This document shows positions 9,174-62,193 of a stretch of 64,000 nucleotides of DNA, piece after piece (positions within the stretch are counted from its first letter, which is position 1; the number at the start of each line of letters is the position of its first letter). The notes beneath the pieces are model-generated. The model searched no databases and had not been told where the DNA came from. It saw only the letters and a program-made list of their open reading frames with translations. This DNA is from Rhodosporidiobolus odoratus (taxonomy: Eukaryota > Basidiomycota > Microbotryomycetes > Sporidiobolales > Sporidiobolaceae), in the NCBI GenBank assembly GCA_034387635.1, contig JAOANU010000005.1, forward strand, positions 372,001 to 436,000, in the 5' to 3' direction. The position numbers and the translations under genes were made by a program.

Positions 9174-11974
9174 ATGTGGGACATCGTACGCGACTCGACG
9201 TTCGGCCAGCTCGTCAACTGGGCCTCATCTGGCCGTTACGCGAGCTACCCAGAACAGCGCCCCGACTTCCGCCCGTCGAAACGTTTTCTCGCCCGTCCGC
9301 TCGACTCGCCTACCTCGGAAGCTCCCCCAGAGGTCTCTACGAGTCGTACTCAAGCCCGCCGAGCCGAGACCGAGGCTACGCAGGTGACGTCCGACTCTTC
9401 GACTGAAGAAGCGGGTCTTTATCCCGTTCACCCCAAGCCGGCGCCGAGTATGATGGAAGCTGCTCTGATGAGGACGAGGAGTCAAGCTACTACGCATCGC
9501 GAAAGTGAGGGAGGAACGCAACGTCCACCGAGAATCCCGGAGGAGGAGAAGCCGTACCCTGGCTTGGTGGATTGGGAGGAGAACGATCAGGATAACCCGC
9601 AGTGCGTTCTGCTCTTACCCGTACCGTCGCGTGTGACTTACTGACGGTACACTGGGCGAGCAGAAATTGGTCGAAGGTGCGCATAACTCCATGTCTCTGC
9701 CAGCAGATTTCGTGACCTTCCCCCTTCCATCTCAACTGCTTCGCTGAACTTGTGCAGCCCAAGCGCTACTTCGTCGGAGCCCAGATCTCCCTCCTTACCT
9801 TCGCTGTCTATGTCGCGTCCGCCATCTATACGTCGTCTATCCCGGGCATCGTTGAGGATTTTCAGGTTTCGTCCGTAGTTGCTACTTTGGGCTTGACCCT
9901 TTTCGTGTTCGGGTGCGCCTCTCCTCCCTATCTACGCGGATAAATGCTTAAACTGGCTCTCAGTAGTTACGGCATCAGTCCAAGTACGTTGGACCTTCTG
10001 CCTCACCATGTTGACGAGCTGAGGACTCTCGTCTCCTCGGCCTGCAGTGATCCTCTCGCCCATGCAAGAAATGCCGTCCGTCGGCCGCAATCCACCCTAC
10101 ATAATAGGCCTCTTCCTCTTCGTTTTGTTCAACATGCCACCGCCGGTCGCAGGAGACAACCTCGTGGTGCTCTTCGTCTTCCGCTTCGCTTCAGGGTTTG
10201 TCGGAGGACCAGCGCTGGCCACGGGTGGAGCGAGCATGACGGGTGCGTCGTACTACTCCCTGTGACACCGATAGCACGGACGCTTGGGGTGCCGAAGGGC
10301 GGTCCGACTGATTGCACGAGCTGCCGTTCTCAACTTCCGGCATTCCACGTAGACGTTTTTCCGCCTCGTCAACAGGCCATGGCCGTCGCTTCCTGGGCTA
10401 TTGGAGCCGCATGCGGGTAAGCAGGTGACGCACCTCCTTCTTCATTGCTCAAGGCTGACTTTGTCGTTTCAACTAGACCGCTTCTCGGGCACGCTGCTTC
10501 TTCTTCTTCACCGACCCCACTCTAGCTCATATCAGCATCCCACAGACCTCCACTAGGGGGCTATCCTGCCTTCTTGAACGGCTGGCGCTGGCCCTTCTAC
10601 GAGATCGTCTGGCTCTCCGGCGCCACCTTTATCCTCCTCTTCTTCCTCCTTCCCGAGACCTACGCCGCTACAATCCTCCTCCGCCGCGCACAAAGGCTCA
10701 GACGGGCTACGGGGAACTCGCACATCAAGACGAGATGCGAGGTACAGATGACGGACCAGGTCAGGTTTTTTGACCTCCTCCTCGTCAACGCGAAGAGGGC
10801 GGTGAGGTTAAGCTTCGAGCCGGCGATCTTTGTGGCCAACATGTGCGTTCTGGCTCCGCTCCAGTGTACGTGCTCCCTGAATGCCGCTGACACCCTTTTC
10901 TCCCCGTAGCCACATCGCCCTCGTTTGTGAGTACCTTCCCCCTCCATCTCGGGCTTGCTCCTGGACACTGACCATTCTGTACATGTACTAGACGCGATAC
11001 TATACATTTTCTTCGAAAGTTTTCCACTTGTATCCACTGGCGTCCACGACTTCAACCTGGGAGAGACGGGTCTTGCTTTTCTCTGTTTTGCAGTCCCTGC
11101 TCCCTTTACCGTTTGTCCTCCTCCTGTAACCTCTGCTACCTCAGCTGACAGTGTCTACTCTGTGCAGTACTACGCCTACTACCTGTATCAGCGCCACGTC
11201 ATGGAACCTCGCATGGTCAACCCGAAACCAGGTCGCCCCTTTACAGTAGAAATGCGCCTCGAGATCGGAATCTTCGCCGGCTTGCTCATTCCGGCGGCGC
11301 TTCTGATCTTTGGGTGGACCGGACGTAACAAGAGTGTGCATTGGATCTGGCCAATGCTGGGCGCGGGGATCTACCTGCCTGGTTCGTCTGCTTGCTTTTC
11401 CCTCTTTCTGCCTTGTACAGTCGACTGACCTGTCTTTCTCCCTACGCATAGGTATCTACCTCAGTTTTCAGAGCATACTCATGTACATCGGCATCGCTTA
11501 TCCCGCCTACGCAGCTTCGATCTTTGCGGGTACGCCAAGTCCTCCTCGCTACTCTTCTCCGGCCTTCCACCGGTCGTCCGAGTCCACATCCTGCTTCACG
11601 ACCGACCCCAACTGATGCCACCCTTCTTCCTGCTTTTGTGCATGTTGCAGGTAACGACTTCTTCCGCTCTTGCTTCGCCGCACCTTTTCCGTACGTCGTC
11701 TCTTCTCCCTCTGCGCGATACCTGCCGCACTCTCTGCGTCTGTACTGAAGCGGCTCTCTCTTCACTTCATAGGCTAGCTGGCGACGCCTTCTTCCGCGCT
11801 CTTGGCCTCGGCGGCGGGAACACCTTCTTGGCGGGAGCTTCGCTTTTTACGACCGGCTTTCTCTATGTACGTCTGAACACCCTCATTCTGCCGATATACT
11901 GATGGCGCCTTTTCTGGCAGCTCATCTACCGTTACGGTAGCAAGCTGAGGGAGCGCAGCGACTTCTCGGGGTAG
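9174..11974 (+). CDS. MFS transporter, DHA1 family (drug/polyamine:H+ antiporter type)
   Basis: The product is a predicted plasma-membrane proton antiporter of the Flr1/Tpo group, which exports drugs, polyamines or other small molecules. The start at 9174 gives a hydrophilic N-terminus of about 150 residues, then 'YPGLVDWEENDQDNPQNW', the typical signature just before helix 1. Helices follow at 9,765-9,915, 10,040-10,250, 10,375-10,420, 10,590-10,670, 10,830-11,110, 11,250-11,390 and 11,450-11,930. Family motifs include 'RFASGFVGGPALATGGASMTD' in motif-C position and 'DAFFRALGLGGGNTFLAG' near the end. The N-half intron most easily runs 10419-10545, giving 'GPPLGGYPAFLNGWRWPF'. The stop is at 11972. 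The gene looks intact. Its 3' half is partly duplicated beyond the downstream transposon. Substrate cannot be told from sequence. Confidence 0.88.
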
Positions 11975-12289: not shown

Positions 12290-12299
12290 ACCTTCTCAA
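12290..12299 (+). repeat. Left direct repeat of the Crypton
   Basis: ACCTTCTCAA is repeated exactly at 16041-16050. The two copies lie outside the inverted terminal motifs, so they are candidate recombination or target sequences. Confidence 0.55.
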
Positions 12300-12300
12300 A

Positions 12301-12366
12301 CCCGTCAGTCCGGACTCGGAATTTTTTTGGCAGGGCGAGTCCAGCCGAGTCCGACGGACTCACGGG
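12301..12366. repeat. Left terminal inverted-repeat region and hairpin
   Basis: It contains the palindrome AGTCCGGACT (12307-12316), extended as AGTCCGGACTCGG, and then GGGCGAGTCC (12333-12342). The right end repeats both in inverted order. The left end can also fold on itself, because CCGTCAGTCCGGACTCGG at its start pairs imperfectly with CCGAGTCCGACGGACTCACGG at 12345-12365. Confidence 0.65.
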
Positions 12367-12470
12367 TGAATAATCTGACTTATCATATAGTCTGCATGGA
12401 ATAACTTCGCTTATCATCTACACCTTACCTTCAATACCAGAGAGGGGAAACAGTCAAAGGGATAAGAAGC

Positions 12471-15294
12471 ATGCCCCCTTTCCCGCCTCTTCTCATCTTC
12501 CGCACATCATGCCTCCCGCTTCTTCTTCACGCTCGAGCAAAGGGAAGCGAGCAGCGCCGTACACAGCACCCTCAGCAACAGCCTCACCGTCTCGCTCGTC
12601 CGCTACGAGGGCTGCTCAGGGAGAGTTGCGGTTGGCCGAGGTTTCCTCGCCAGGTGTACGAAGAAAGCAGGGCTGCTCGCAACCCGAACACGATCAGGGC
12701 GTATGAGCGGAAGCAGAAGGCTTTCCAGGAGTGGTGCGATGGTTTGGGACTGGGCATGAGCGGGTGCGTTGAGTTTTTGATACCTGCTGTGAGCCGATTG
12801 TCGAGCTGATCTGCCTCGGCTTTCGACCTAGACGTGTTGTTACTGGCGAGAAGCTTGTAGCTTACCTGCGGGAAGTCGTCATTGGGCGTGCACCGCAGAA
12901 GCGCGGCCCAAAGTCGAAGAAATCGACTTTGACGAACAAGGGAGGGAAGGGCAAGGGCAAGGAGAAGTCGGCGTCGCTTCCCCCAGGGAACAATAGCGAT
13001 GAGGAAGACGAAGATGGCGCAGAGGATGGTGTCACAGCTGCTGAAGGAACAGATGGCATTGCTGCTCGTGTGTTACCTTTCCTCTGGGTTTTCTCGCTAT
13101 TTCCGCTCATTCTTGCTTTGATTGCAGCTATCGCCCAGAAGGTCATCTCAGGCGCCGTAGTCGAGCAAACTATATATGCCATCGTCGATCTATGGCGAGA
13201 GCAGCAGGCTCTGGGCATGAACACCTTCGAGAATCCGGGAAAACATCCGGCGGTCAGGTTGATCAAGGAGGGTTATGAGCGCTCAAAGCATCAGCGGAAG
13301 CGCGACGCTTTCACAGATCGAGGTATTGGTACGTGCTCTGCTCCTTCTGTGTACCGTGAAGGTTGTAGGACTAATCAGCACTGCTCATTTTCAGGCTCTC
13401 TACAAGATGGTTACACCACAACCGAACAATTCTCCGCTCTCCTCACTTCCTGCATGAAGCGCGACACAGCAGAAGGTCTGCGTGACCGCCTCGCTTTCTG
13501 TATCGGTCACTACGGTATGCTGCGGTCAAGCAATATCCTCGCCATCGAGCTCGCCGACACTTTTGCCGTTGATCTCCCCAAAGAAGGGCCCACTCCCTCG
13601 TTTGCCGTCGTAGTCATTCTCGATAACGGCAAGACCAACAAGGACGGAAGGACGGAGTACGCCGCTTTCACTCGGCATGAACAGGCGGAGGTATGCGGGG
13701 TTGGCGCTATGGGCCTCTATCTCTTTCAACGGTGCGGTCACGGTCACTGTCCCTGTCATTGAGTCTTGTACACTGACATGCTTGTATCGTCAGCCAGCTT
13801 CCAAGTTTCCCAGGAGTCCTTTCCACCCGACAACACCCAATTCCCTTCTTTCGCCACATCTGAAGATTGGTTTACTCTCAAGCTCCTTTTCTCCGGCACT
13901 AATCCCTTCGACCCCCTTCTCTATAAGACGTTCAACGCCTCTGTTCAACGCGCCAAGAAAGCCACAAAACTTCCCACCAAAGCCGTCACTCACATCTTTC
14001 GAGGCAGCGGGTCAAGGATGGCGGACTTGGGAGGGGCAGCCAAGGCGGACATTCGATCAGCAGGCCGGTGGAATGTGGATGCGGTTGATCGATGCTACTT
14101 GACGGGGCTAGCAAGAGAAGTGATCCGAGTTCATGCCGGATTTGATGCGAGAGGAGGAATGTACTTTTTGCAACGCGATATCGAGGTGCCCGAGGAGTTG
14201 CTGCGTCAAGTCTTTCCGGAAGCGGATGAGTGGTGCGTATTGAACAGCCTCCTGTCCTCCCACTTTCACGGACATTCCGGCCTATCCTTTGCCTCCTTTT
14301 ACCCGCCTCCTTCTTCCTGGCCCGTCAAGCAAACAAGTGCTAATATATGTCTCTCTTCCCTTTCTTCCCTCTCTTCCCTCTCTTCCCTCTGTCCCTGTTC
14401 TGCTTGTCCACTTCCGATGCCCGTAGGCTCCACCGCCTCGAAGAAGGCGATCGTGCCCTCCCCACCATCTCCGCAATCAACTTCCTCAGACTCCTGCTCC
14501 GCCTTCGCCCGGTCATCATCCAAGACGCAGCTTGCATCCGTGCCACCTATTCGACGCACCCTATCTTCCTGCACCCTCTTTTCTCTTCCCCCGCCTTCCT
14601 CGCTTTCGAACAGCACATGAAGCAGCATCTTTCGACGGTGCAAGACCCTTTTGCCCTTGAGCTTGAGCGTGTTCTTCCCCTCCTCACCAAGCACATCGAC
14701 ACTGGCTTCGACCATCAACGCCAGCAGCTTCTTCAGCTCATCAATATCGTCTCGACACTTTCTGAGAAAGTCGAAAAATCCGGTTCTAGCAGCCACAACC
14801 TCCTCTCGGACGTGCTCAACGGTCGCGTCGCTGTCCGACTACATGCTGAGACAGGTGGCGCTGATCCTGCGCCGTCCACATCTACCCCGACAGCTTCCAC
14901 TTCCGCTGCAGCCTTTCCCTCGACCTGCGCCTTATCCTCGCCTGTCGCCCATGCCCTTCCCCTTGAGCTCAACGGGGCGCTCAAGACTGTTGATGAAACC
15001 TGGCGGGAGTGGACAGAAGGTGTGGGTGGGCAGAAGAGTATTGAAGAGGCTTACCCGGAGGGAAGCGAGGAGTTGAAGAAGTTGCGGAAGGTGGACAAGC
15101 TAAGGAAGCAATGGGACAGGAAGAAAGCTGTGGTGGATAAGGTAAGGTGGATCATGAAGAAGAAGAAGGTTACTGGGGAAGTAGCGGTCAAAGCCCTCGA
15201 TACTTTTCGGAACCAACAGAAGAACAAAAGCCTCGACGCTCTCCGCAAGCTACTCAAAGCAGACTTTTCGCTTGACATCCCACTTCCTGTATAG
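12471..15294 (+). CDS. Crypton tyrosine recombinase with C-terminal GCR1_C domain
   Basis: This is the predicted transposase. Exons read 'NPNTIRAYERKQKAFQEWC' (SAM-like N-terminal part), a K/E/D-rich linker near 12,900-13,070, then an Ndc10/Crypton-like catalytic core. The core shows an early Arg in 'YGMLRSSNILAIEL' (13,515), the H-x-x-R motif in 'KAVTHIFRGSGSRMAD' (13,980), 'IRSAGRWN' and the candidate nucleophile Tyr in 'DRCYLTGL' (14,095), followed by 'HAGFDARGGMYFLQRDIEVP'. A coiled-coil stretch follows at 14,640-14,800. The C-terminus at 15,000-15,290 begins 'TWREWTEGVGGQKSIEEAYP', a GCR1_C signature. Introns lie near 12764-12831, 13071-13127, 13330-13393, 13732-13797 and 14233-14426. 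Starting at 12471 keeps one open frame; the ATG at 12509 would need a frameshift or a 13-base intron. No premature stop is seen within the chosen exons. Confidence 0.8.
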
Positions 15295-15982
15295 TCTTCT
15301 CTTCTTTCTGTCACTTTGAGTTTTCTTCCTTCTGTAGCTGCGGGCATTTGTCGTTGCAATCCTTTCTCGCTGTCGCTTTCTGTTCTTTGTCGGGTCCAAT
15401 CTTCATTCCCCTGCAGTAATGAGACTGTTGCGGGAGTTGATGCCAAACCTTCTAGTGCGGCTACGGGCGACAGTTGCACTGCATACCGCTTTGAAGGATA
15501 GCAGGATGCGGAACAAGGTCAAGAGCGGATGGGTGGCAGAGAGATCGGTCTGGGACGGCCCTCCGCTGCGCTGACATGAGCAGCAGGGGGTGTTTCCAGA
15601 GCTGAAAGAGGGACTAACACCGTGTCTGCAGGCGTAAGTCAGGTCAGAGTGCCATGACGAGGTCGTGAAGGGCAGCGCGAGCAGGACGAGGACGAAGCGC
15701 TGGTTGCGAGCTTGAAGTGCATAGTGAGAGGTCAGACGTACCTGAAGACTCCCAGAAGTACCCGCAGTGGGTATCCAATTCAGCACGAGTTGCAGTCGAT
15801 GAGAGAGACGGCGTAAACTCAAAAGCGGTGAGGTCAGGCGGTGCAGACGGGCAACAACATGCGGCGGTTACCACGCCTGTGTACCTTCTCTTGAGCTTTT
15901 TGATAGTGTAGATGTGCAAAGATTGAGGCTGAACAAGCGAGGCAACGAGCAAGAGAAGAGCGGACAGACTTATCCACACGCA
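15295..15982. other. Non-coding 3' part of the Crypton
   Basis: No plus-strand gene is recognised. On the minus strand there are splice-like signals (donor GTACGT near 15,741; a branch and acceptor CTGACTTACGCCTGCAG near 15,632) and an open stretch at 15,644-15,979 that has no ATG at its start. Confidence 0.4.
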
Positions 15983-15985
15983 ACC

Positions 15986-16015
15986 GGACTCGCCCAGAAG
16001 ACCGAGTCCGGACTC
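15986..16015. repeat. Right terminal inverted repeat of the Crypton
   Basis: GGACTCGCCC (15986-15995) followed by CCGAGTCCGGACT (16002-16014) is the reverse complement of the two motifs at the left end, with a slightly shorter spacer. A looser related copy, GCCGGACTCGAC, occurs near 16152. Confidence 0.65.
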
Positions 16016-16040
16016 TATGTGGGGGGGAGTAGATAATGTT

Positions 16041-16050
16041 ACCTTCTCAA
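16041..16050 (+). repeat. Right direct repeat of the Crypton
   Basis: This is an exact copy of ACCTTCTCAA at 12290-12299, in the same orientation. Confidence 0.55.
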
Positions 16051-16260
16051 CTCAGTTTCCGCCGTTGCTCCCGCCTCAGCAGCTGGCGATAGCGCCGCCT
16101 ACTTGGGCTACCGGTACGAGCCACGACTGTGACATAGATTTCCCTGACTCTGCCGGACTCGACTAGCCCTAGCCTCTACACACCTTGTCTCGAGCAAGCT
16201 CTTTTTTTCACACCTTGTTTTTTCGCTTGCTCCCCAAGTTTGACCCCTTTATGGGCTTCT

Positions 16261-16665
16261 CCACCGTGCGCAAAGGCTTAGAAAGGGGATCGTGAACTCG
16301 CACATCAAGACGAGATGCGAGGTACAGATGACGGACCAGGTCAGGTTTTTCGACCTTCTCCTCGTCAACGCAAAGCGGGCAGTGAGGCTGAGCTTCGAGC
16401 CGGCTATCTTTGTGGCCATCATGTGCCTTCCGACTCCGCTCCAGCGTACGTCTTGCGTCGATGCCGCTGATGAACTTTTCTCCCTGTGAACCACATCGCC
16501 CTCGTCTGTGAGGACTTTTTCCCTCCATCTTGATATTGCTCCTGGATACTGGCCATTCTGTGCATGTACTAGACGCGATACTATACATCTTCTTAGGATC
16601 GTTTCCACTCGTAGTCCATGGCGTTCACGACTTTGCACCTTTTCCGTACTTCGTCTTTTTTCCTG
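16261..16665 (+). pseudogene. Partial degenerate copy of the MFS transporter
   Basis: Bases 16261-16630 match 10681-11050 of the intact transporter in the same orientation, including two introns. Both read 'NSHIKTRCEVQMTDQVRFFD' and 'NAKRAVRLSFEPAIFVA'. The match then jumps to text similar to 11684-11700 (GCACCTTTTCCGTAC), implying an internal loss of about 630 bases. The copy has no start, no N-terminal half and no C-terminal end. One splice acceptor is destroyed: CCGTAG at the parent becomes TGTGAA. Because introns are retained, it arose from genomic DNA and not by retroposition. It probably derives from a tandem second transporter gene. Confidence 0.85.
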
Positions 16666-19649: not shown

Positions 19650-21544
19650 GTTTGTAGTGAGCGAAGTTGACGAGGTCGATGAGGGGGGAATGGGCATCGA
19701 GGGGGGAACTCGTTACCGGAGCAGGCGTAGGGCGTCGTACAAAGGAGATACGTAGATAAAAAGCTGAGCAGGCGGAATCGAAGTCCCCTAGTGAGTAGAC
19801 GAGGCAGGCGAGACGAGAGAGAGCGTCAGTGAGCAAAGGTAAGGGGATTACAATAAGAAAATAGCAACCGGAGTTTGATCACAAAATCATGACATCTTCG
19901 AAAAACGCAGATCTCCAATGCATACCACGCAGTTTAAGGTTTGTACATGAGAAGACGGAGAACTGATTTACAGTCTGCGAAATAGCACAAGCGGGCATAT
20001 ACAGTCAATACAAGAACGACCTGATCAAAAGTATTGCCGTTAGTGTATTCAGAACTGAGAAGGTCGCCCGGTCACTCACACTGCCGGGCCTTGCTTAGTA
20101 CACACGTCGATGTGTGTGCCACAGACGGCAGGAAGTGATGAGTAAGGCTCAGTCACAAGCGCTCGATCACGTCGTCGAGATCAGCTGGACAAAGCGGGAG
20201 AAGTGCAGAGAGTAAGCCGGGTGTTCGCACATTCGCAACACGCTGTAGCAGCCTTCCAGCGCCAAGGCGCAAGTCATTCCAGCGGTTCCCCTGTGACTTT
20301 GACGTCGCTTGCGCCGCTGGTAGCCGATGGTGAACAAGCAGCCCAGACGGGGTCAGCTGCTGGGTAAAAGACTACCAAGCCCTGCAGAGGGGTTGATACC
20401 GACGGGCGCGACGCCTGACCTTCCCGCCGCCAGCTGTATGTACTATTTTAAAATTGAGCTGCTTCACTACGGCCGAACGAGGCGTGCGGTTGAAGAGAAG
20501 GGGCAAAGCAATGCCAACTTGAGAAGGTCAAGGCAACCGGAAAGGTCCGGTCGAGGGAACGCTTCGCTGGGCAGCGGAAGCAAGCAGTGCGAGGACAATG
20601 ATCCGCAGCTATCTCCAAGCAGTTAGTAGACAGGCGGTGCTAGTCTCAGAGAGGCGGCACGCTGTCGAGTCTGTCCGCCGAAAGTGACCGGCATTGACAG
20701 CAGTCCAGGGCTTTCCTCTCAGGTTGTGCATAACGTTTATCTGGTCGGAGATGCTGTTGTATACTTACAAGTGCCTTGCTGTCACGGGCATGGCTGAACA
20801 GCTCTAGGCGAGGAAAGCATACGTGACCAGGTGTTTGCGCTTCGACCGCTGTTCATGTGTCTTTCCAGAGTATATCGTGCTCCACTCGCCGGGGCGGACG
20901 AGATAGCTGGTAAGGTCGTGTGTCTCCTGCTGCTGTGACCCCGTCTCGCGAGTGTCGGGGGGTCGCACCCGAAACGGCAGGTCTCACCGCCTACTTCATT
21001 GTGCGAAGGAAGAAGTGGAGGGCCCCGCTGCCAGGAGAAGCTGGTCAGTGGCACATTCCGAGGCAGTTCCGAGGGAGGATAGATGAGATACCCGCGCGAA
21101 GGTAGAGAACACCCGGGTACAGCGCCTCTGTTCGCTTATACGTTAAGCAGCCTTTTCCAGGCCCCCCCGCCTAATGAGACTGGCCGCCGCTATCTAGACG
21201 AGCCTGAGGGTCTCCCGCCTCACTATGACTGGCGAGCGCCGTCTTTGGCTGCCGCCGACCCCCCTCCGAGGAGGTTTGCGTGCTGCAGCGAGTCGGCAAT
21301 CGCTCGCGAGATGAGGGGTACCCCGGCTATGCTCGACAGGTTCTCTCCGTGCTGTCTCCCCCGACAATGAGGCTTCCGCGGTGCGACATGAGGTGGTGGA
21401 TCTTCTATCAGCCTGGAAGACACTTTTTTCTTGCGACGGCCTCTTCAAACCCTCGCCTTCTGCTCTCTCTTCTTCCTCTCCTTCATCGTTCCCACCTTGC
21501 CTTGTAGCTCTGCTCCTCCCCACTCCCGCTCTACCACCTCCACC
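19650..21544. other. Long divergent intergenic region, about 1.9 kb
   Basis: The region separates the minus-strand RING ligase from the plus-strand secreted protein. It is less pyrimidine-biased than other spacers, with an AT-richer part at 19,850-20,010. Short open frames (for example 20,327-20,626) have no recognisable motif or splice support. I found no tRNA-like B box with a matching structure. It may hold a non-coding RNA or regulatory DNA. Confidence 0.4.
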
Positions 21545-27533: not shown

Positions 27534-28443
27534 AGACGAGGCATGGCCAGCTTTGAGAAGGTCCAACGGGCCCGGAGAGAGGGGGAAAGCACCCGTTCCA
27601 AGAGTTGCTTGCCTCGACATGCGTATCTGCGCCGTCGACTAGAGGTTATAGTACAACGCTGCCCTTCTGCCCAACGTCGGAGCACGCGGGGAGGAATGCG
27701 CCAAACTGAGGAACCCTGCAGGATGTACCGGATTGAACTCGTCCGTGTGCTGATGGACGGAATGGTCAGCAACCCTGTGCCGAGCCATGGTTCTCCATTC
27801 CAAGGTTGAGTGGCGTCGCGGCAATGGTGGACAAAGGGTGCGGGCGAAAAAAAAAAAAGAGAGAAAGAAAAACGCACAGGGTGCAAGCGATCGTTTGCGC
27901 TGGATCCGGGGTGAGATCGCTGGGGGTTCTGGGTCGTTGTCGTCTCGTAGTCGAGCATTCTACCTTGGTGCTATGGCCCAGAGAGAACGAGAAAAGAAGA
28001 GCGGGGGTAAGGGGTACGACGCGTTTACGGAGGGGGATCAAGTCGAGAGTCAAACTCACCGGAACGCCGGCAGACATTTCCTGTGAGAGCGAGCAATAGC
28101 GAGATCAGGTTTCGTTCTGAACATTTCGGGCTAGCACGCAGTGGCTCTCGGCAGGAGAGAAGGAGACGAACATACAGGAAAGCCGGGTACCCACCCTTCA
28201 GCTTGTGAGGTGGCTTGGGTCGGAAGGACGCGAGGTGTACTAGTAGGGATGTTGAAGTTGCGGTGGACGACTGGCGCCGAGGTGTATGCCTGTTGCGGGG
28301 AATGCGAGCCAAGGAGGAAGGGGATTCAACATAAGCGCGAGCATAAACAGAAGGCAGATCGGTGATTATGGAACGTCGAAGTTACCGGCACGACATGTTC
28401 CCCTTCAAATACCGGTGAGCGAGAGCGACGTCTACTCCGGTTC

Positions 28444-33974: not shown

Positions 33975-34331
33975 GCTGGTAAACGGAGGTCCGCTTTGGT
34001 CCTTCCGGTGAGCGGACGCGCTTAGTAATGCATAGTAGCTAGTCTCTTTCCTCTCTCTCCTCTAGTGATCGTTCTTGCCGTAATCCTGTTGCATTTTCAT
34101 CTACACTTTTCGGTTCCTCTCATTCTAGCCTGTCTCGCAGATGAGCCGTGGGAGCTTCGTGGGCGCGTTCGAATATACACCTGCTTAGCTTGCAGCCGGC
34201 GCACGTCAGTAGCGCAAAGAACGGCTCCGCCCTGATTGAGAAGGTCATCAGGGGAAGAAGAGCTTGCTTTGCCGGACCTGCTGCGACAGATTATGAATCC
34301 CGTTGAAACGCTTCGATATCAACCTCCGATA
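33975..34331. other. Convergent 3' intergenic region
   Basis: It lies between two convergent genes. TC-rich DNA near 34,040-34,070 is the only visible feature. Confidence 0.5.
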
Positions 34332-35679: not shown

Positions 35680-37513
35680 AGTAGCTGTGTCGGTGCTATA
35701 AGGAGCAGGAATGAACGAAGCGGCGGAAGAAGAGGTCGAGCGGGTCGCCCGTGTCGGCCGCGGTATCGGCGGAGTTGGCTGATAGAGCTATCGCGAGCGA
35801 TAGTCTGACCCATAGCTCAGCTCAATGCTACATCCGTCAACTGCCGCTGTAAGCAGCCCATCATGCGTCGACGCCAGCCTAGCCGCGGGCCCAGCGACCC
35901 TCCGCTCGACCATTCTTCGATGAATCGAGGGAAGGGAGTGTGCTGACCTACCTAACCCTGTCTCAGCTGCTCGAGCGCCAGATACGCTGTGCATGAGGTG
36001 CTGGCTTCGGACTCGCGAGACACGAGCGGAGAGTGGCCGAAGAGACGGACGAGAACAGAGCGCGGTTCCAAATTTGTGGGCGGGCGTACTCAAGCGTACT
36101 CGCTTGGCCGGGGTCTTCCTTTTCCAGCCGCCCCGTCAAGAAGCATGCAAAGGTATCTCGTAAGCGCCGTGAAACGAGAGCTTAGTACTGAGGTGCTTTC
36201 GGATGCGCAGCAGCGAATGCAGAGTTCATACAATGAGGAGCAAAAGCATAGCAGCTTCAGGACCGTACCCATCGTCGAGGAATACGGAGCAGCACACGAG
36301 AGACACGTTGTCTGCGATGTGGTCGCGCAGCTGGGAACCGGGAACGCGCTGGCTATTTGAGAAGTCGAAAGTTGCAATAAGGTGAGGGAAGAAAAGCTCT
36401 GGTTTTCTAGAGCCTACTTATAGACCTTCGCCCGGTTAACTCAGAGCTTCGGATGAATGAATCCGTCTTCGCACTTGGCACAGCTTGCGGAGAGCGTTGC
36501 GAGGAAGTCATACATCATCACAGACTGACCTTCGCAACTCGGGGTTGGAGAATGAAGAACGCCGACCACAGCTTCGTCCTGCCTGCGATGGAAAGACAGA
36601 AAGACACGAGTGATAGGATGCAGCACGAGGTTCTCGGAGGGATCGTATTGAGAGCTTCTGATTGAAGTAGGCTCTCGGAGAAAAAAAGTGCAACTCTCGA
36701 GTTCGGAGACTGCCTGCTCAATCAGATGCGGTCTCTCCAGCGTCTCTGCTCTTCGCGACGCACACCTCACTGATCACACACTGCAGTGTCAGGCGCACCA
36801 GGCTCCACCCCGACGCTGCATTTCGCCTATCCAGCTCGAGACACAACGACCTTCTCAAGTCGCGGTTCGTCGCTCGTCCCCCTTTTCCTGCGACGGTTGC
36901 TCGCGGCTGATGAGCGGACGAGGGGTCGTTGGAGCTGTTCGTCCGCCATATGGTCTGGGAAGAGGAGCCAGGCGGAGGTCGGTCGGAGCAAGAAAAGGAG
37001 GTTGATCGCACTGACCCTCCCCATCCATTTCTCTTCCACTCTCCTGTCGCCTCCTCTTCACCCCTTCGTCGTCCCCCGGTCCTCCTCTCTCTCGCTCCTC
37101 CTTTTCCGATCCTTTTCACAGGTCTCCTACTCCTCTCCTCGTCCTTCGGCCTTCATTCACGCGTTTACCTCAATCCCCCTCGTAGTTTGACATTCACCTT
37201 CTCCTCTCTTCTCTACCTGCTCATCCTTCTCAAGCGCGGCAAATCCGCCTTTCTGTCAGCAGCTTCTATCCTCTTTCCTGCCCTGCCTGCCTCCGTTTCT
37301 CCCTTCCCATCTCGACTCTGAGCCGGTTCTCTGAAGTCCTACCTTCGTCGCCCAAGGTCAGCTTCCTTCTCTTTCTCTTCAAATCTGCCATTCGCTTGTT
37401 CGAGCGATATTTCAGTCAGCAGCCCGCTCACTCTTCTCCTCCTTACCTGCACAGCTACTCCTTCGCGTTTCCGCTCGTCCTCACCTTCCACTCGAACCTC
37501 CTCCTCCGTCGTC
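35680..37513. other. Divergent intergenic region, about 1.8 kb
   Basis: The region separates the amidohydrolase (minus) from the zinc-finger factor (plus). The 600 bases before 37514 are strongly pyrimidine-rich (CTCC/TTC runs), pointing to a long 5' leader for the transcription factor. Short open frames inside are without motifs. Confidence 0.45.
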
Positions 37514-60141: not shown

Positions 60142-62193
60142 GGCAAGTAGTGTTGAAGGAGAACAGGGAACCAAAAGCTGACAGCTGTCATTCGCCCGAC
60201 CCTCCGCAAAATCTCGAACTCGACTGGATCATTTCGTGTCCGACTGCCTTGGCTTGGCCCCTTGAAGCATTTCCTGAGTACGACCGCAGCAAGGAGGACT
60301 TGAGTACACGGCGATATCTGGCAGTCTCTTGCGTTCGTCGGGGACAGGAGCGGAAGAAAGAGGCTCACAAGGGGGACGAGCGATCGAGAAAAGAAAAGAG
60401 GAAAAGACAAGCTGCCACTACGGAAGTGCGGGCGAGGTTGCATGAGCCCTTGGCGAAGAAGGCAGAACCAATGGCCAGCAACGAAAAAGGAGAAGGGACA
60501 GTTCGGCGGGAGAGAGGAGAAAGAACGAACGAGAGAAAGAAAGGCCTGCGTCGAGGTTCGCAGCGCGAGACTCCAGCCGCGACCTCATGCCACTATTTTC
60601 CCTCGAGCCAACTTCGGATTGTTCGTAGAGGCTCTGCAAGCACGCTGTGGCTACTCGTGACCCTGTTGCGGCCGCTGACCAGCGCCTGGAGCGCGCTGGC
60701 CTACCAGGCGGGGGCGTTGTGCGGCTGTGGCTGCCGTTGTGCGTCTATACTTGAGCGAGCAGCAAGCTAAGCAGCAACAGTAGACGAGGTAGCGCCAGCG
60801 TGCCGCTATTGCCCGACTTTTCTTTTGACCTTCTCAAGTTGGTTACGAGACGGACTCTTGCCACAAACGCGGTCGGTACTATTCTCGCTAGTCGCAGTCG
60901 CTATCGGGACATTGTAACGATTGAAGCGGTCCAATGCCAGGAGCATGAGCTTGGTACAGGCTTGCTGAAAAAATTCGACTGCCTTCTTTCTGCTGTGGCT
61001 TGTCCCGACTCTGCCGCACCACTTCTCACCTGCTCTGACAGCAGAGCCGTACCGAACGAGGCGTTTGCAGACCTCTGCTCTTGAATTTTGGGCATGGCGC
61101 CATTGCAGCGGCGCAGCCTGGAAAACGTAGCCGCCCTGTCGTGCCAGCCCTACCGCTGGTCATCACCACCGTCCGTTCTCCTCATCGTCAGGAGGGTTCA
61201 GGTGGACGACAGTCACTGCCCTGGCTTTTCCTCCTCCAGACAGCCGGAACCTTCGAGATTCCTTCGTCTGTCGTATGTACTCTTTACCCAAGAAGAATAA
61301 CAGGTGGTCAGGCAGGTGAGCGTAAGCTGGACAGGTCTGAGAGAACAGCGCTGCCATGGTCCTGTTACCGTCACAGCTGAACCTCTTCATTCTTTCCCGG
61401 CTGCCCTTCCCTCCTCCTGAAGTGGATCTCGCATCGCCAAGCCCCTAGCAGCTCAGTATCGCCGATAAGTGAGCTGAACATGTCACTGTACGTGGTAGCT
61501 GAAGGGACGCCGGACGGTCTTCAAGCGGGGTCAGTTCAGTAGAAGGTGAAAAGGCGAGGTTGGGTTTCCTTCACTGCGTCTCCTTTGTCCCTCCCCTCGG
61601 CGAACCTTTGCGTCGTCACCGACGCGTTCTTGATCCTCCCACTGGACGCTACGTGCCTTGTCAAGCGAGCAGGTATCACTCGAGGCGGACGCCGACCTTC
61701 TCAACCTCGACATCTCATGGCGAAGAGCACCTGTGGCTGGAGAAGGGTCTTGCAGCATCTGGCCCCAACTCTAGAGAGTGAACGGCCCGCGTCCCCCGCC
61801 TTCCAATCTACAGGCTGGATAGACAGCTTGTACATAGCGAGAGAATTTGTGTTACAAGCTGACAAGCTGCTGTACACCCAGCTCCTCCTCAGCGCAATAG
61901 CTGAAGTAAAGAAGAAACACCCAACATCTGGCTTTCATTCGCGTTCGTTGTTGTGCGAACGAGGCGAGAGAGAAAAAAGCGGTACACAAAGGAGATTCAG
62001 ATTGAGAGGAGAGAAGTGAACGAAAAGCTGCTACTACGAGAAAACAGGTGAGATAGTGCTAGACGGAGACGAGGGAGGTAGGAGACAAGGAGGAGGACAG
62101 GACGAAACGCGACGGGGCATTTGGCGGGAGAGAGAGGCGGAAAGAAAGAAAGGAATGCCCCGACGACCTTTTTACTGCAAGAGTCCCGGCCGT
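60142..62193. other. Long region upstream of PFK, about 2 kb
   Basis: It lies 5' of the minus-strand phosphofructokinase and 3' of the next minus-strand gene. A purine-rich, AGAAAG-type stretch (60,340-60,550) reads as pyrimidine-rich on the PFK sense strand and is probably its leader. No supported gene was found in 60,800-62,150. Confidence 0.45.

Follow-up and report, generated by a model that had tools for sequence, protein, structure and literature searches.

A CryptonF Lineage of Rhodosporidiobolus odoratus Tied to a Frequent, Mostly Non-coding Host Motif

Introduction

The part of Kojima and Jurka (2011; PMC3212892) drawn on here describes Cryptons as lacking terminal inverted repeats and as having terminal direct repeats of 4 or 6 bp, proposes by analogy that they integrate as circles, and presents their boundaries as hard to characterise. 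According to the same part of that source, the CryptonF elements, i.e., Crypton-Cn1 of Cryptococcus neoformans and its relatives, carry a gene for a tyrosine recombinase with a GCR1_C domain, have direct repeats at both ends and show no repeats inverted at the very ends, and the budding-yeast proteins Ndc10/Cbf2 and Gcr1 derive from them as host proteins without a catalytic site. The Starships, as described in the portion of PMC12506042 used here, are far larger and carry cargo, and their repeats vary in length and conservation; the element Sanctuary spans 170-196 kbp and has the 6-bp consensus ATWHCT. The element analyzed here lies at positions 12290-16050 of a 64,000-nt stretch of Rhodosporidiobolus odoratus (GCA_034387635.1, contig JAOANU010000005.1:372,001-436,000, forward strand; hereafter the window) and resembles CryptonF in gene content, in its direct repeats at both ends and in having no repeats inverted at the very ends, whereas its core is 10 bp long and the published ones are 4-6 bp.

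In our view this element is probably a CryptonF that, as a circle, undergoes tyrosine recombination with a host motif present in about 1,700 copies. What is new here is that a CryptonF lineage is tied to a host motif of extremely high frequency, mostly located outside coding DNA. To our knowledge, little is known about how Cryptons choose their sites.

Results and Discussion

Ends and Copies of the Element

The element and its attachment cores are located as follows:
12290..16050, + strand: CryptonF element of family 1 (fam1), window copy, 3761 bp including both core repeats; 8 full-length copies with identical ends
12290..12299, + strand: left attachment core ACCTTCTCAA, preceded by host TG
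16041..16050, + strand: right attachment core ACCTTCTCAA, preceded by TT of the element and followed by host sequence

The original prediction, made from the window sequence, had proposed that a 10-base flanking direct repeat marks the true ends of a Crypton, and had suggested a search of the same genome for other copies. The repeat was found where it had been placed, right to the base. With positions 12290-16050 as query, the assembly that contains the window (45 contigs, 24.8 Mb) gave 8 full-length matches (99-100% identity) and 11 shorter ones. All eight full-length copies (3,754-3,770 bp) start and end exactly at ACCTTCTCAA and none ends elsewhere, and the outer 1-kb flanks (14, at 7 loci) show no mutual similarity, which supports the repeat as the boundary. 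The copies differ by 0-10 substitutions per pair, suggesting a recent spread. Small indels outnumber substitutions among their differences (e.g., at window positions 13791-13794), and several of them, judged by eye, resemble short tandem duplications confined to one or two copies each.

Two fam1 copies stand in tandem on C15 with a single 10-mer common to both. With 1 substitution and several indels between them, they are unlikely to be an assembly duplicate. Such tandem copies with one shared core would fit a circular intermediate, without proving it.

A second family (fam2) comprises four elements, two on C4 and one each on C15 and C5, about 65-70% identical to fam1 in the aligned coding pieces and all bounded by the same word. 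Three of them are 5-8 substitutions apart and the fourth differs by about 625. Between fam1 and fam2 we counted 26 identities in the first 30 bp, 58 in the last 66 bp and 39 in the 80 bp after the left end. The two families together provide 12 full-length copies with this core (8 fam1 and 4 fam2). In 2 of the 4 fam2 copies GCCTTCTCAA stands on the left and ACCTTCTCAA on the right; in all four the core at the right end begins with A, so that the G of the left repeat is most likely derived from the target. These unequal repeats are the outcome predicted if the strand exchange between circle and target falls to the right of base 1. At the fam2 insertion on C4 (L017:6135-6167) the host motif has its core repeated 23 bp further on.

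The core is not shared by every Crypton of this host. A distant Crypton on C2 (339515 onwards; 338500-348490) resembles fam1 in encoding NDC10_II and GCR1_C and in forming tandem copies (4,883-bp units) with one terminal repeat in common, but this repeat is only AAT, whereas that of fam1 is 10 bp long. The 10 kb read there contain no exact ACCTTCTCAA, with a one-mismatch version inside each unit, and no GAGTCCGGACTC box even when two mismatches are allowed. Therefore, the 10-bp core belongs to the fam1/fam2 lineage. Two further NDC10_II matches lie beyond the described families, at C10:713969-714205 and C7:971681-971866.

The Repeat Word Is the Core of an Abundant Host Motif

The word ACCTTCTCAA occurs 1,703 times in the 24.8-Mb genome (843 + 860), while the reversed word occurs 72 times (38 + 34). 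The same excess was found for TGACCTTCTC (1,515 in the genome vs 124 for its control) and for TGACCTTCTCAACTTGG at up to 3 mismatches (1,319 vs 75). The form present at the right end of the element, TTACCTTCTC, which has T instead of G before the core, is at background even with the element ends included (163 vs 147). Moreover, in a sample of 221,214 bases from which the ascertained sites and the elements had been cut out, simple words filtered and loci L023, L024 and L039 dropped as duplicates, the top three of 131,711 non-simple 10-mers were GACCTTCTCA (20 occurrences), TGACCTTCTC (17) and ACCTTCTCAA (15), all of them shifts of TGACCTTCTCAA. As TTACCTTCTC stays at background and these 10-mers persist with the elements removed, the excess is that of a host motif rather than of element ends.

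The context of the motif was compiled from 40 rows taken from the window and 30 loci (first 330 kb of contig 1), two of the rows being the element's own ends and a few being repeated. The 34 sites that are left without repeats and element ends have TG before the core and YY..GG after it, with little else in common, giving a motif close to TGACCTTCTCAAnYYGG whose 10-mers reach about 1,500-1,700 copies. The boundary proposed for the element holds, and it is more than a boundary, being the core of this motif. In the literature, searches for ACCTTCTC together with promoter and for TGACCTTCTCAA or its complement gave nothing on fungi by title among the matches listed.

The 1,700 words might be scars or solo ends of this or related transposons. 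Several sites do stand where no gene is predicted over 3 kb, duplicated contexts were seen in a few cases (L022/L023, L047/L048), and for two more families, fam3 (C7) and fam4 (C1), the exact end pattern detected the left end alone and did not find the right one. Nevertheless, the element's right ends have TT in front of the core, a word that does not exceed background, the contexts of 35 motif sites are mostly unrelated outside the motif, and the exact element-end patterns amount to just 13 left and 12 right ends, which makes an origin from scars improbable.

Insertion Sites Are Members of the Host Motif

A weight matrix was built from the 34 genomic motif sites and used to score the host bases around the core at the 11 testable insertions. 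The insertions scored 4.09 on average, compared with 3.44 for the genomic sites and -3.11 +- 3.01 for random window positions, and none of 5,000 resamples of 11 random positions reached 4.09. G precedes the core in 12 of 13 cases (p 2.7e-6) and the second base after it is a pyrimidine in 11/11, the exceptions being C7, with A in front of the core, and C8, which scores -2.41. The insertion sites are thus members of the host motif, and the target supplied the repeat word.

The mechanism that we propose is a site-specific exchange. The tyrosine recombinase would excise the element as a circle carrying one ACCTTCTCAA between clusters of GAGTCC boxes, with the expected junction TTACCTTCTCAAACCCG. 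The circle would then recombine with the same word inside the host motif TGACCTTCTCAAnYYGG, where an unoccupied target would hold one [A/G]CCTTCTCAA between the left and right flanks. With the crossover to the right of base 1 in the 10-mer, the left copy would keep base 1 of the target and the right copy that of the element, and the outcome would be a 10-bp direct repeat with the host-motif core on both sides. The 12 full-length copies give the exact ends, the 10-bp core, the crossover interval and the candidate boxes, so that this reaction is directly testable.

Two regions flanking the window copy, 10676-11052 and 16256-16633, are 84% identical, one on each side of the Crypton. Judging from its ORFs (open reading frames), this duplication seems to consist of one portion of a membrane-protein gene and a fragment of that gene. 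It was considered as a paralogous empty site and rejected, since it stops short of the insertion point.

Subterminal Boxes

The boxes near the ends of the window copy are:
12307..12319, + strand: left subterminal box AGTCCGGACTCGG, whose core is also found in fam2
12333..12342, + strand: left subterminal box GGGCGAGTCC
12347..12361, + strand: two more GAGTCC/GGACTC half-boxes (at 12347 and 12356)
15986..15995, - strand: right subterminal box, inverted GGGCGAGTCC, reading GGACTCGCCC
16002..16014, - strand: right subterminal box, inverted AGTCCGGACTCGG, reading CCGAGTCCGGACT

The terminal 110 bp contain 7 of the 8 GAGTCC/GGACTC 6-mers of the window copy (element positions 23, 48, 58, 67, 1525, 3697, 3715 and 3721) and all 8 of the one fam2 copy counted, from C4 (17, 23, 48, 59, 79, 3696, 3714 and 3720). 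Outside the element, the window has 27 in 60 kb, i.e., 0.049 per 110 bp, with a maximum of 2 per such stretch. The clusters are found at both ends of two diverged families, several boxes at the same positions. These boxes are most likely arm-type sites, to which the recombinase would bind.

The inverted motifs that had been proposed at the ends are indeed at their positions, but AGTCCGGACT begins 17 bp from the left edge and finishes 36 bp from the right one. Because the boxes lie inside the ends, and at unequal distances from them, they do not qualify as classical terminal inverted repeats. A classical DNA transposon bounded by terminal inverted repeats, with the 10-mer as its target site duplication, would also be expected to have a flanking direct repeat and inverted boxes close to its ends. 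Such a duplication would vary, whereas the repeat is identical at every fam1 site; in addition, the boxes are not equidistant from the ends, the repeats of two fam2 copies are unequal as recombination predicts, and NDC10_II and GCR1_C are the sole gene domains recognised. We consider this explanation very improbable compared with a CryptonF.

The Recombinase

The gene and its domains are:
12471..15294, + strand: recombinase gene with six exons (12471-12763, 12832-13067, 13128-13328, 13395-13731, 13798-14232 and 14427-15294); start codon uncertain
13205..14598, + strand: NDC10_II / tyrosine recombinase domain, split over exons (Pfam)
14965..15210, + strand: GCR1_C DNA-binding domain (Pfam)

Manual splicing yields a single open frame of 789 codons. 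A self-trained gene model gave the same five introns, but a start at 12756 and extra introns after 14500. Pfam detected NDC10_II (1e-15 for the best ORF, the domain being spread over three ORFs) and GCR1_C (2.1e-11). We take the catalytic residues, from family knowledge, to be R (13523-13525), K (13631-13633), HxxR (13991-14002) and Y (14096-14098). Among 12 relatives THxxR is invariant and GK, W and Y nearly so, and all of them are present in the window protein, whose catalytic set R..K..HxxR..Y appears to be intact. The fungal Crypton signatures reported for this protein, H-x-x-R, the late Tyr and GCR1_C, were recovered. "Complete", as the element had also been called, applies to its ends and its recombinase core and not to a proven intact gene, because the N-terminal stretch shows no single consistent frame between the copies and the nearest relative.

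Of the features by which a CryptonF is recognised, the following were found: an R-H-R-Y recombinase, GCR1_C, terminal direct repeats and, in the Pfam scan of the three main ORFs, neither a reverse transcriptase nor a DDE transposase. The tyrosine recombinase taken by itself would also suit a remnant of a retroelement of the DIRS, Ngaro or PAT type; however, Pfam recognises NDC10_II and GCR1_C in the three main ORFs but no reverse transcriptase, the 8 copies of 3,754-3,770 bp have the same ends, and no longer copies with a reverse transcriptase appear among the own-assembly matches, so that such an origin is extremely improbable.

The protein is 72% similar to R. odoratus proteins, 32-36% to Tilletia and 29% to Talaromyces proteins, and a sequence search of PDB chains gave no match at E 0.1. 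The search for GCR1_C gave 14 matches, all within Crypton copies (8 fam1, 4 fam2 and 2 on C2), so that this search found no host transcription factor with GCR1_C as reader of the motif. An NDC10_II protein was also noticed in a record named Solirubrobacteraceae bacterium MAG (metagenome-assembled genome), with 31 member sequences, which is perhaps due to fungal contamination of bins.

Position of the Motif Relative to Genes

Six unoccupied motif cores lie in the window:
20519..20528, - strand: unoccupied host motif core, TG before it
27553..27562, - strand: unoccupied host motif core, GG before it
34236..34245, - strand: unoccupied host motif core, TG before it
36849..36858, + strand: unoccupied host motif core, CG before it
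60828..60837, + strand: unoccupied host motif core, TG before it
61695..61704, + strand: unoccupied host motif core, CG before it

The placement of the motif relies on genes predicted by the self-trained model. All six of these sites are intergenic. Among the 45 rows with a preceding G (two sites counted twice in overlapping loci), 34 are intergenic, 9 fall in a predicted intron and 2 in an exon, while 3 of the 4 rows without it are exonic and the other one is intergenic. Exons make up 51% of the window (intergenic DNA 23%) and 27% of the sampled loci including the window. The motif is thus rare in predicted exons.

These figures bear on the possibility of a CryptonF of ordinary type, with a rather long direct repeat, in a genome where base composition or codon usage makes the word abundant by coincidence. 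Five of the 49 rows are exonic, as this would allow, three of them lacking the preceding G. The reversed control at 72 against 1,703, the fall to background when G just before the core becomes T, the 2 exonic rows among 45 against those exon shares and the extended motif present in the insertion flanks all contradict it, and we regard such a coincidence as quite unlikely.

Predicted gene ends were present within 1.5 kb of 22 intergenic sites, and for 19 of these the closest one was a 3' end (p 0.0009 against one half). The preference for gene 3' flanks that this perhaps reflects is tentative, because random intergenic positions give 51% in the window and 77% in the motif-centred loci, and 19/22 stands only against the former; the motif also contains TGA, which could bias the predicted gene ends. 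The motif is on the strand of the gene in 12 of the 19 3'-end sites, and the lack of a clear strand rule fits a signal at the DNA level. The coding-potential profiles dip at the motif with no clear orientation, and a weak, cruder convergence test gave p = 0.02 for upstream genes on the same strand, 0.91 for downstream ones and 0.09 combined. Among 20 ORFs close to motif sites, Pfam assigned a family at E <=0.01 to 8, with one falling below the family's cut-off and no class shared among them, and it did so for 2 of 10 further window ORFs. As for the insertions, 8 of the 11 are intergenic with a predicted gene nearby, its nearest end being 3' in 8/8 (two narrowly); two others are in predicted introns and one has no predicted gene in its 1-kb flanks.

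The roughly 1,700 landing sites are probably mostly harmless. The motif itself points to a host DNA-binding factor, and it is possible, if somewhat doubtful, that the Crypton co-opted the binding motif of an abundant host DNA-binding protein marking non-coding DNA, gene 3' flanks included. If so, the Crypton would land where coding sequence and promoters are mostly spared, leaving the motif core on both sides. A tyrosine-recombinase transposon would thereby have a safe-harbour strategy, and the element would naturally mark a genome-wide motif of Sporidiobolales yeasts that is so far undescribed.

Comparison with Known Systems

Budding-yeast Ndc10/Cbf2 and Gcr1 share with the window protein the recombinase-like fold and GCR1_C, but the latter keeps R, K, HxxR and Y. 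Starships, in the portion of PMC12506042 used here, are similar in their tyrosine recombinase, in the direct repeats at the insertion and in being recognised via empty sites. They differ in the large cargo behind the captain gene, the window element being 3.76 kb long with one gene recognised. Dada (PMC8869645) and Ty at Pol III genes (PMC5911963), as far as the excerpts of these articles describe them, also tie insertion to a repeated host feature and limit the damage, but with other enzymes and at tRNA, snRNA and other Pol III genes, in contrast to the short, mostly non-coding motif used here. Among the papers listed on Crypton repeats (direct, inverted or 10 bp long), target sites, circles and targeting, titles and the beginnings of abstracts showed no core equal to a host motif, which is no proof of absence. 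Compared with the CryptonF elements in the cited part of PMC3212892, the window element adds clusters of GAGTCC boxes at both ends and a core equal to an over-represented host motif, and this link to a frequent, mostly non-coding motif would make it a tyrosine-recombinase element with built-in safe targeting.
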